Assembly: GCA_030699125.1 (NCBI GenBank)
Contig: JAUYKM010000008.1
Location: 1 to 45,516, forward strand
DNA: 45,516 bases
Source: Candidatus Daviesbacteria bacterium
GTDB taxonomy: Bacteria > Patescibacteriota > Microgenomatia > Daviesbacterales > UBA10151
Reading direction: 5' to 3'
Below, one piece after another: positions 1 to 2,896 of the stretch. The notes under the pieces are model-generated. The model worked only from the letters and a program-made list of their open reading frames with translations, ran no database searches and was not told the DNA's origin. A program made the translations under genes and the position numbers. How positions within the stretch are numbered: position 1 is the first letter of the stretch; each line of letters starts with the position of its first letter.

Positions 1-2689
1 AAACAAAGGTGGCAGATCCTAAATTAACAGGACCTGATGATAACCCACCCAAACTATTAGACTGGACTATGCCCTCTCCCAGAGTAGAGAAACTAGCGGC
101 TGAGGTGACAGTTAAGGATTGACCCACTCCCACATTACCGGAGACAGTTAAGGTAGAGGCATATCCGCTACCTAAGGATGAGGTACCGGAGACAGACAAA
201 GAAGCGGTATTAATATTGGATGTTGCAGTAAGGGAAGAAGATATACCGACATTGCCAACTACATCTAAAGCAAACTGAGGATTGGATGTCCCTACTCCCA
301 CATTACCCTGTACTACTAATCCATCTCTGGCTGAGGTAGGCAGGGTGGCTCCGGCATATGATGAACCTATTCCCACAGACCCAAATACTCCAAGTGTAGA
401 TCCGGGAGCAGATGATCCTATACCCAACCTCATTAATCCATTATTCCAGTAAAAGGCATTATTACCGGAGAGGGTGTCAGTATCTGTGAAGAAAGCCACC
501 TGATTAGTAGCTCCTGTGCCATCTACAGATGAGGCAGAGCCAATATCTGAGGCACAGTAGACATTGCCACTGCTATCTGTGGTTAACTTGCCTAAGTTAT
601 TTAATCCTGAACAATTCTGTCCGGCTAATCTGAATGCTCCGGTTGATGAAACACTCAGGGATTGACCAATACCGACGTTACCTGTTAAATCTGAGAATCC
701 GTTAACTCTTAAACCTCCTGTGGAGTAAGTCAAACTGGTGATGGTTAATGACCCACCAATTCCGGCATTGCCTGAGGTGGTGAGAGTTCCTGCATAGGCT
801 GTACCTAAAGATGATGTTCCTGTAACTGCTAATGCTGTGGTATTGATTAAGGAGGTGACAGTTAAGGAGGTCCCAATACCTACATTACCAATGATATGCA
901 GGGGATAATCCGGGGAAGTAGTGCCAATTCCCACATTTCCCTGTACAGCCAAGCCATTAGTAGGAATGCTGGCATTAGCAAATGAGACACCAATACCCAC
1001 GCTACCTACAACTGACAAATCAGTACCTGGAGCAGTGGTGCCAATCCCCAGTCTGAAATTATTGTTATTCCAATAAAGTGCATTATTACCGGAGATGGTT
1101 GTACCGGAGGTCCAGAAAGTGATCTGTCCGGCACTTCCACTGCCGGTGATTGATGAAGATGCTCCTGCATCATCAGCACAAACTATTCTTCCTGAGGAAT
1201 CAGCAGTCAGTTTTCCTGAATTATTTAATCCGGAACAATCGTATATTTGTAGCTGAAGCGCTGATCCTACAACTAAGGATCTGGAAATTCCCACATTTCC
1301 TATTACCTCAAATTCATAGGCGGGAGAGGTGGTCCCAATTCCCACATTTCCTTGTACAGCTAGTCCGTTAACAGGAATGACAGCATTGGCAAAAGATACC
1401 CCTACCCCTAAATTTCCGGCAATTGACAGTTTGGCCCCCGGGGCTGAGGTGCCAATGCCCACATTGTCTGTGGAAGTAGTTAATCTGACCACTGTGCCAT
1501 CGTCGGTCCAGCCTGGAGAAGTGGTCGTACTCCAAGATAAGGTTCCTGAACCATTAGTTGAAAGAGTTTGTGAGGATGAACCATCAGCTGATGGCCAGGT
1601 ATAAGTGACTCCATTGAATTTCGTGGTCCCTGAAACAGTCAAACTACCTGATAAAGAAATGGAATCATCCAGATTTAAAGTGACTGATCCTCCCAAAGAA
1701 ACAGATCCGCCTCCACCCAAGTTGGTGCCTGCATCAATGGTTATTGAGGAATTATCAAGCTCTGAGTTTGATATCTTCTGTCCCAATAATGAGATTTCTC
1801 CTGTGGCATTGGGTAGGGTGATGGTTCTAGCTGCTGTTGGAGTCCAGGTTAAGGTGCCAGTTGGTCCGCCGGATTGGAATATTAACTGATTAGAAGTTCC
1901 GGATAAATTGGCAGAGGTGAAGGTGGGGGAAACAAAAGTGGGAGAAGAACTTGTTGATAGGTTTTGATCTATTGTGGACGAGTTTGTTACATCTAGGCTG
2001 GTATCTCCAGAGCTTAAAGCGAAGGTAGAGGCTGAAGGGGTTGATTCAACAATTAGTTCATTGATAGCGTCGCGGACAAATAAAGCACCGTTGACTTGTG
2101 CATCAGTATTGATTTCCAAGAATCTAGTTCCCTGGGTGACGGCCAAAACTGCTTGATAATCGTCTGATGTTAACTGGACTGTTTTTGTTTTTTCGTCTAT
2201 CTTTTCAGAGGTGAAAAGATTACCAAGACTCTTATATCCTAAAACAGCAACACTTGTTATTATTAATGTAAATATAATAAATGCACCGGAATATGCATAG
2301 ATTTTATTATTATTGTTATTATTTGCATAGATTTCAGGGCTATTTGAAGAAAAATCCGATATACTACTTTCCCTGGTAACAGTAGGAATTAATTCGTTAA
2401 CAGTTGGGGGTTTTTGGACCTTCTTTTTTAAAAACTGATCTTTCAGCTGTTCAAGAAGTTCCTGGGAATAGAGTCTAGTCCCTCCAGGGGTCCTTATTGA
2501 GGTAAGTTTTCCGGATCTTTCCCAACGCCTTAATGTATCAATGGAAATTCCTAAGCTTTTGGATGCTTGCCCGATTTTGATAAAATCAGGGCTGTTTAAA
2601 GGGTCATCATGCGACCCCGTTTTAGTGGAGTCTTGAGGTTTCTTGTTTAAAGAAGTATCTGCAGTATTATTGGGCAAGTCTCTCTTCAT
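1..2689 (-). CDS. Giant surface-fibre-like protein with N-terminal MerR-type HTH (partial, C-terminus beyond window)
   Basis: An open minus-strand frame runs from ATG at 2689 to the window edge, about 896 codons with no stop. Residues 36-82 form a MerR/excisionase-type helix-turn-helix (KIGQASKSLGISIDTLRRWE, then a wing with TPGGTRLY). A linker leads to one membrane segment at about residues 133-152. Everything after that is low-complexity S/T/G/N-rich repeats carrying the motif VGIGTTSP or close variants about every 30-60 residues, as in tail-fibre and Peptidase_S74-type surface proteins. The likely topology is HTH inside and fibre outside. No gene name fits. The C-terminus, which could hold an S74 autoprotease or chaperone, is not in the window. 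The gene follows the ATPase operon on the same strand after 207 bp. Reading frame and domain calls are firm; function is unknown. Confidence 0.85.
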   Translation of the reverse strand, partial: MKRDLPNNTADTSLNKKPQDSTKTGSHDDPLNSPDFIKIGQASKSLGISIDTLRRWERSGKLTSIRTPGGTRLYSQELLEQLKDQFLKKKVQKPPTVNELIPTVTRESSISDFSSNSPEIYANNNNNNKIYAYSGAFIIFTLIITSVAVLGYKSLGNLFTSEKIDEKTKTVQLTSDDYQAVLAVTQGTRFLEINTDAQVNGALFVRDAINELIVESTPSASTFALSSGDTSLDVTNSSTIDQNLSTSSSPTFVSPTFTSANLSGTSNQLIFQSGGPTGTLTWTPTAARTITLPNATGEISLLGQKISNSELDNSSITIDAGTNLGGGGSVSLGGSVTLNLDDSISLSGSLTVSGTTKFNGVTYTWPSADGSSSQTLSTNGSGTLSWSTTTSPGWTDDGTVVRLTTSTDNVGIGTSAPGAKLSIAGNLGVGVSFANAVIPVNGLAVQGNVGIGTTSPAYEFEVIGNVGISRSLVVGSALQLQIYDCSGLNNSGKLTADSSGRIVCADDAGASSSITGSGSAGQITFWTSGTTISGNNALYWNNNNFRLGIGTTAPGTDLSVVGSVGIGVSFANASIPTNGLAVQGNVGIGTTSPDYPLHIIGNVGIGTSLTVTSLINTTALAVTGTSSLGTAYAGTLTTSGNAGIGGSLTITSLTYSTGGLRVNGFSDLTGNVGIGQSLSVSSTGAFRLAGQNCSGLNNLGKLTTDSSGNVYCASDIGSASSVDGTGATNQVAFFTDTDTLSGNNAFYWNNGLMRLGIGSSAPGSTLGVFGSVGIGSSYAGATLPTSARDGLVVQGNVGVGTSNPQFALDVVGNVGISSSLTATSNINTASLSVSGTSSLGSGYASTLTVSGNVGVGQSLTVTSAASFSTLGEGIVQSNSLGGLSSGPVNLGSATFV

Positions 2690-2718
2690 TTAGGTTTGTG
2701 TCCGTCTGCTCAACCATA

Positions 2719-2763
2719 AAATCTATGTAATTTTAAGGGTCTACACTCACGTTACATAGATTT
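2719..2763. promoter_or_regulatory. 12-bp perfect inverted repeat upstream of the fibre gene (possible operator)
   Basis: AAATCTATGTAA at 2719-2730 is repeated exactly inverted at 2752-2763, with a 21-nt gap, 30-74 nt upstream of the fibre gene start. Palindromes between gene and promoter are typical of regulator sites, and the fibre protein itself has a MerR-type HTH. Autoregulation is inference. A TTGACA lies just beyond it on the minus strand, so the repeat falls in the promoter region. Confidence 0.5.
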
Positions 2764-2896
2764 GCACAGATTTGTCAATAGGGGATGAATATATCAAACT
2801 AGGTCAATTTTGGTATAGTCAGGGTAAAAGATATTTACAACAAAATGGATCAGTGTGTCGGTGGATCGGTATATCAATTATTCGGTAGCAGAATTC

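Follow-up and report, generated by a model that had tools for sequence, protein, structure and literature searches.

Why should a protein that forms a giant surface fibre begin with a DNA-binding domain? The question is raised by the first gene in a 45,516-nucleotide stretch of Candidatus Daviesbacteria DNA (contig JAUYKM010000008.1, assembly GCA_030699125.1; the whole stretch is called the window below), in which a single frame on the minus strand encodes a MerR/BldC-type winged helix-turn-helix (HTH), one membrane helix and a Gly/Ser/Thr-rich fibre. We consider it likely that the product is a one-component autoregulator that spans the membrane and has the giant surface fibre as its outer part. 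Binding of the HTH to tandem repeats in its own promoter is strongly supported by the matching of HTH and operator types across relatives.

Architecture of the window gene

The open frame runs stop-free on the minus strand from an ATG at 2689 to the contig end (window 2-2689) and encodes 896 amino acids (aa). Its parts, including the transmembrane (TM) helix, are as follows.

2 to 2689, minus strand: HTH-TM-fibre gene, first 896 codons; completed on contig C15 to 1,283 aa, with an intein N-half at the end
2441 to 2584, minus strand: MerR/BldC-type winged HTH, residues 36-83 (PF00376, AlphaFold, nearest solved fold BldC)
2240 to 2296, minus strand: single transmembrane helix, residues 132-150 (hydropathy; AlphaFold helix 129-155; position conserved in 111 of 112 relatives)
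2 to 2233, minus strand: extracellular fibre with VGIG repeats, G+S+T about 43% (sequence reading; outer domains of relatives)

The gene is interrupted where the window starts, which is the end of contig C16. The first bases of the window are an exact, frame-keeping copy of 141 base pairs (bp) at the end of contig C15, and a contig search found no identical match to this overlap in any contig besides C15. Joining C16 to C15, for which the 141-bp exact overlap is the sole basis, yields a gene of 1,283 codons with no internal stop.

The Pfam MerR model (PF00376) matches residues 38-74 above its curated cut-off (E = 2.5e-11), and AlphaFold, run on an alignment with 17 relatives, predicts a winged HTH at residues 36-90 at a confidence (pLDDT) of 94-96, a helix at residues 129-155 and linkers of low confidence. 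Pfam and NCBIfam searches find no effector domain after the HTH, where the AlphaFold model passes through a low-confidence linker directly to the membrane helix. The sole strong hydrophobic segment of the protein comprises residues 132-150 (mean Kyte-Doolittle hydropathy 2.1); a weaker one, at residues 427-445, lies inside the fibre.

The same order of parts is found in relatives. We fetched 112 loci from Microgenomates genomes, chosen for long frames, for which the closest named organisms are Candidatus Daviesbacteria. In 111 of them a membrane helix follows one to three HTH copies within a further 260 residues, whereas only 2 of 183 equal-length ectodomain windows reach the same helix threshold. 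The cytoplasmic HTH and a linker of 25-130 residues stand ahead of the helix in these proteins, and the charges of the flanking 20 aa favour an HTH that faces inwards (K+R 3.25 vs 2.38; 61 proteins vs 31). The window protein carries a DNA-binding domain and a membrane helix in one chain and is, by structure, a transmembrane transcription regulator.

The original prediction, namely an HTH, a membrane helix and a repeat fibre in one frame, the giant fibre being anchored in the membrane with the DNA-binding domain at its cytoplasmic end, is confirmed as to the frame by open reading frame (ORF), Pfam, hydropathy and AlphaFold analyses, and is supported as to the topology. A frameshift or misassembly at residues 100-160, which could have fused two genes falsely, is ruled out because the HTH-helix order is shared by 111 of 112 homologous ORFs, against 2 of 183 controls. 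Those relatives also answer the suggestion that the HTH-TM-repeat order be sought in other genomes of the Candidate Phyla Radiation (CPR), where it is present; the order recurs across the GTDB family and class. The supposition that such an architecture is rare does not hold for this group, given that 197 of the 374 genomes searched in the class have an HTH of similar kind (E<=1e-8), many times in very long ORFs, the longest of them 5,314 aa. Outside the class, HTH-bearing ORFs reach 4,483, 2,863, 2,226 and 8,840 aa, and in most of those fetched the HTH is followed by a membrane helix, which in a few is only weak.

Ectodomains vary among the relatives: one locus combines collagen repeats with S74 (L026, PF13884), a second FG-GAP repeats with an intein (L040), and a third has an intein domain (L056). 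The VGIG-type repeats of the window protein resemble those of trimeric S74 tail-fibre-like surface proteins, a class with which L026 shares the S74 domain. The window protein differs from that class in its N-terminal HTH-TM anchor, in an architecture that a scan of viral contigs did not yield, and in the absence of Peptidase_S74 (PF13884) from a search of its whole genome. The S74 autoprotease domain for which a check of the C-terminus had been suggested was not found; the gene ends in a split-intein N-half instead.

The DNA-binding domain and its subtypes

The closest solved structures to the window HTH, by sequence and by fold, are the BldC-DNA complexes of Streptomyces (6AMK, 6AMA), although the NCBIfam BldC model scores the window protein at 29.2 of 77 bits, under its cut-off. 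Like BldC, the domain is a winged HTH that stands alone and lacks the coiled coil of MerR; unlike BldC, a soluble protein of 68 residues, it continues into a membrane helix and a giant fibre. The base-reading residues of BldC are Arg30 and Lys26 of the recognition helix together with His46, Arg47 and Arg48 of the wing (PMC5859096). In the alignment, R55 of the window protein is equivalent to Arg30, D51 to Lys26, and T71-R72-L73 to His46-Arg47-Arg48. Across 43 HTH copies the positions equal to BldC Thr27, Thr29 and Arg47 are invariant; variation is found at the Arg30 position, which is R or N, and at the wing tip. Judged by its nearest relative and by these conserved DNA-contact positions, the window HTH is BldC-like.

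The variable positions define five subtypes: A (R, wing GGTRLY), to which the window belongs; B (N); C (R, wing GNQRRY); D (R, wing GKNRYF, mostly with two HTHs); and E (wing GHRRY). Proteins across the subtypes carry one or two HTH copies, in one case three. Types A and B thus differ, R against N, at the equivalent of the base-reading Arg30 of BldC (PMC5859096).

A candidate operator within the promoter

Upstream of the window gene lies a set of short elements that place tandem repeats within its promoter.

2773 to 2778, minus strand: -35 element TTGACA (aligned in 24 type-A promoters)
2765 to 2773, minus strand: operator direct repeat copy 1, AAATCTGTG (repeat analysis, type-A alignment)
2755 to 2763, minus strand: operator direct repeat copy 2, AAATCTATG, at a 10-bp period with copy 1 and inside the -35/-10 spacer
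2749 to 2754, minus strand: probable -10 element TAACGT, spaced 18 bp from the -35 (almost every type-A promoter has TAnnnT); transcription start predicted near 2742
2719 to 2727, plus strand: AAATCTATG as an inverted operator copy beyond the promoter (several other type-A promoters likewise have one downstream)
2701 to 2709, minus strand: conserved element GCAGACGGA (16 of 28 type-A upstream regions)

The repeat at 2719-2763 to which the original prediction had pointed is real: AAATCTATG at 2719-2727 forms an inverted repeat with CATAGATTT at 2755-2763, and a further direct copy lies at 2765-2773. Within the window's subtype, two head-to-tail AAATCTATGY repeats occupy the 18-bp spacer from TTGACA to TAnnnT; in 24 aligned type-A promoters both repeats fall exactly inside this spacer, and several of these promoters have a third copy after the -10 element and an inverted copy further on. 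BldC, whose binding is cooperative, likewise uses head-to-tail direct repeats, with a period of 9 bp against 10 bp here, where binding is predicted. A classical MerR protein, by contrast, binds an inverted repeat in a spacer of 19-20 bp and has a coiled-coil dimerisation helix and an effector domain; since the window protein lacks both of these and its subtype carries direct repeats in an 18-bp spacer, it is not a classical MerR protein.

The element GCAGACGGA sometimes pairs with CCGTCTG just past the ATG to form a hairpin round the start codon (L038, L041, L051, L052). As an abundant DNA-uptake-like sequence it was rejected because its copies are too few (11 in the genome vs 2 for a reversed control).

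Candidate operators match HTH subtypes across relatives

Exact AAATCTATG occurs 25 times upstream of 33 genes against an expectation of 0.075, with 24 of the occurrences in R-type genes; CCTAACTTTT, at <=1 mismatch, occurs 12 times in 33 upstream regions (1.95 expected), always in N-type genes. Tandem direct repeats of period 9-12 and score >=8 are found in 36% of 111 upstream regions and in 4.6% of shuffles. Each of four subtypes has a motif largely its own: AAATCTATG for type A (20 of 29, with 1 elsewhere), TTTCCTAA for type B (8 of 17, 2 elsewhere), and, with counts that are somewhat optimistic, ACTTGGACA for type C (14 of 26, 1 elsewhere) and ACCTATGCA for type D (7 of 18, 1 elsewhere). 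Matched HTH-motif pairs number 49, compared with a mean of 11.8 and a maximum of 24 in 20,000 permutations.

Because the subtypes partly follow taxonomy, we turned to genomes that contain several of them. Within these, 23 of 25 genes match the motif of their own type better than either of two others, a result that counters lineage as the sole cause of the match. The predicted pairing of DNA and protein can explain this outcome; shared genome ancestry cannot. The proposal that the HTH binds the repeat at 2719-2763 thereby gains strong comparative backing from the operator counts and the subtype-motif pairing.

In 57 whole genomes of relatives, the tandem type-A site occurs at 14 places (2 for a reversed control pattern), 11 of them just upstream of HTH-fibre family members, including window 2754-2773; the other three, two in coding DNA and one before an unrelated gene, resemble background. 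Within the window's own genome the site is unique and located at the fibre gene, with no second tandem site, and hence no wider regulon, seen at 3 mismatches allowed. The position of the sites relative to the promoter differs by subtype: in types C and D they lie between the -10 element and the start codon, D having a long palindrome (for example ACCTATGCATTGGTTAACCAATGCATAGGT), and in type B the site adjoins the start codon.

A further HTH subtype with the wing NNYR.Y is present outside the class (L336, L339, L348, L349), where an inverted TTTACTA...TAGTAAA or similar after the -10 element suggests another matched operator. Two HTH-TM-fibre genes each have a divergent neighbour, a small ORF that encodes the same HTH by itself (L201:1007-1294 and L203:1033-1308, both plus strand).

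A split intein shared by the fibre gene and two giant ORFs

The joined gene ends in GE/CVAEGTRIRRRRKK...LLEVVL-stop, an intein N-half with Cys1 (GE/CVAEGTRI). It is followed on contig C15 of the same genome (G000) by a second ORF of 3,819 aa (71667-60208), which has an overlapping ATGA start with GGAGG 8 bases ahead and the remaining intein at its N-terminus (PF14890, E 9.9e-14, profile positions 9-155 of 155), ending VAHN/T. A third ORF of 3,804 aa (60211-48797) starts with a closely similar intein C-half. Both C-halves contain the motifs TTKEHP (block B TxxH) and VAHN/T, and so the sequence hallmarks of a split intein, Cys1 in the N-half and TxxH with HN before Thr in the C-half, are present, the latter on two ORFs. 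The second ORF contains LVIVD beta-propeller repeats, and a C-terminal domain is common to ORFs 2 and 3.

ORFs 2 and 3 both lack a hydrophobic segment at the N-terminus, so that their export would be explained by trans-splicing onto the membrane-anchored product of the first gene. The presence of one N-half and two C-halves suggests alternative products, and alternative trans-splicing of the fibre gene with ORF 2 or ORF 3 is possible. The arrangement resembles atypically split inteins, in which a short Cys1 N-half ends one ORF and a C-half with block B His and HN/T starts the next; it differs in belonging to a surface fibre operon in which a single N-half would be contested by two C-halves, with splicing predicted. 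Similar inteins in another genome (G015; L040 and L056) lie mostly within frames, some breaks looking like frame changes, and the split may therefore be specific to the window's genome.

Genome G015 yields 23 matches to the intein query, and in the fibre ORFs of L040 and L056 several intein/Hint modules follow one another, with RRRRR stretches past the first cysteine. In the window's genome, the second ORF (C15:60208-71667) has a palindromic repeat element, VIPADAGIQ...WIPAYAGMT, inserted at its N-terminus; the third does not.

A second membrane MerR-like kind

Ten Woesebacteria loci (L229, L231, L233-L237, L242, L245, L246) encode a second kind of membrane MerR-like protein, with an HTH, a long linker, a C-terminal membrane helix and a very short outer tail that ends in ILSPIP or similar in those read. 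Several of these loci have, close by, a gene whose product resembles the transcription terminator Rho.

Discussion

The positions of the sites are those of a repressor and therefore favour autorepression by membrane-seated chains; judged by operator position only, the protein is probably an autorepressor. HTH binding between -35 and -10 in type A, or just downstream of the promoter in types B, C and D, would block RNA polymerase, so that fibre chains resident in the membrane would stop more of this very costly protein from being made. The availability of the HTH may then shift, and expression be adjusted, when the fibre is lost, engaged or cleaved. The fibre itself, in the window's genome, would probably be completed by protein trans-splicing to one of the two downstream giant ORFs.

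Several observations weigh against this interpretation. The positive-inside bias is modest (K+R 3.25 vs 2.38). The exact motif is missing in about a third of type A and in over half of types B and D, and type E has no clear motif in the upstream regions examined. The type C and D 9-mers were picked within their own groups, which accounts for their optimistic counts, an optimism limited by the shuffle control and by the absence of the motifs across groups. MerR proteins also activate transcription from the spacer, though at a spacing of 19-20 bp. Finally, both binding and expression control are predictions from sequence comparison.

A more ambitious version of autoregulation is a self-gauging surface organelle, in which tethered repressor and fibre base are one protein, one of two alternative 3,800-residue distal parts is trans-spliced on, and the HTH reports to its promoter on the completed fibre's state, so that display would be counted and replaced on demand. 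We regard this as a rather long shot. Somewhat less probable still is proteolytic release, whereby a cut within or close to the membrane would free the HTH from the fibre protein, to act as a cytoplasmic activator or repressor. That membrane-bound factors can be subject to regulated proteolysis is well established, the HTH and its 25-130-residue linker lie on the cytoplasmic side of the helix, and many type-A proteins share a conserved juxtamembrane outer segment; release would also accord with the self-promoter evidence. Against it, neither a cleavage motif nor a dedicated protease was identified, and the tethered one-component regulators ToxR and CadC act without release in well-studied cases.

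We think it unlikely that the HTH serves to hold its own gene at the membrane, where a giant protein could more readily be transcribed, translated and inserted in a coupled manner. The very long ORFs and the one genomic tandem site at the gene's own promoter would suit such a tether, but the sites overlap or abut the core promoter, a position that a tether does not need and from which binding is expected to affect transcription. RodZ has the same HTH-TM-outer-domain order with an HTH that binds protein, and a scaffold of that sort, with the fold reused for a cytoplasmic protein partner, would leave unexplained the invariant DNA-contact positions and the co-variation of operator type with HTH type; we judge it very improbable. 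Least credible is a prophage tail-fibre gene or fusion artefact, a notion prompted by the location at a contig end and by the VGIG repeats and S74 domains of phage tail fibres, and prophage origin was rejected because a scan of viral contigs yielded only short stand-alone HTH genes or proteins without the HTH-TM-fibre architecture, the neighbours of the window gene are an ATP synthase operon and a leucyl-tRNA synthetase gene, and more than 100 loci conserve the architecture.

As a probable tethered autoregulator, the window protein resembles transmembrane regulators of the ToxR/CadC kind in uniting a cytoplasmic DNA-binding domain, a single helix and an outer domain in one chain; it differs in the hundreds to thousands of residues of fibre outside, in its MerR/BldC-type HTH and in a predicted target that is its own gene. 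The text of a survey of transmembrane regulators names neither Patescibacteria nor candidate phyla (PMC10269533), and no description of the HTH-TM-fibre architecture came up in searches of the open-licence CPR literature, preprints being outside this scope, on topics that included MerR, giant proteins, tail fibres, S74 and inteins.

Membrane-bound one-component regulators were known before; what the papers searched did not describe is a structural fibre protein of the cell surface with a transcription factor of its own built in, recurring across a large uncultured group in which the subtypes of HTH and operator match. The matched HTH-operator pairs form a natural set for studies of specificity in BldC-type domains, and the split intein offers a candidate natural role for such elements in the assembly of surface proteins. 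For small-genome cells with few regulators, this arrangement offers a mechanism by which costly giant surface proteins could be controlled.
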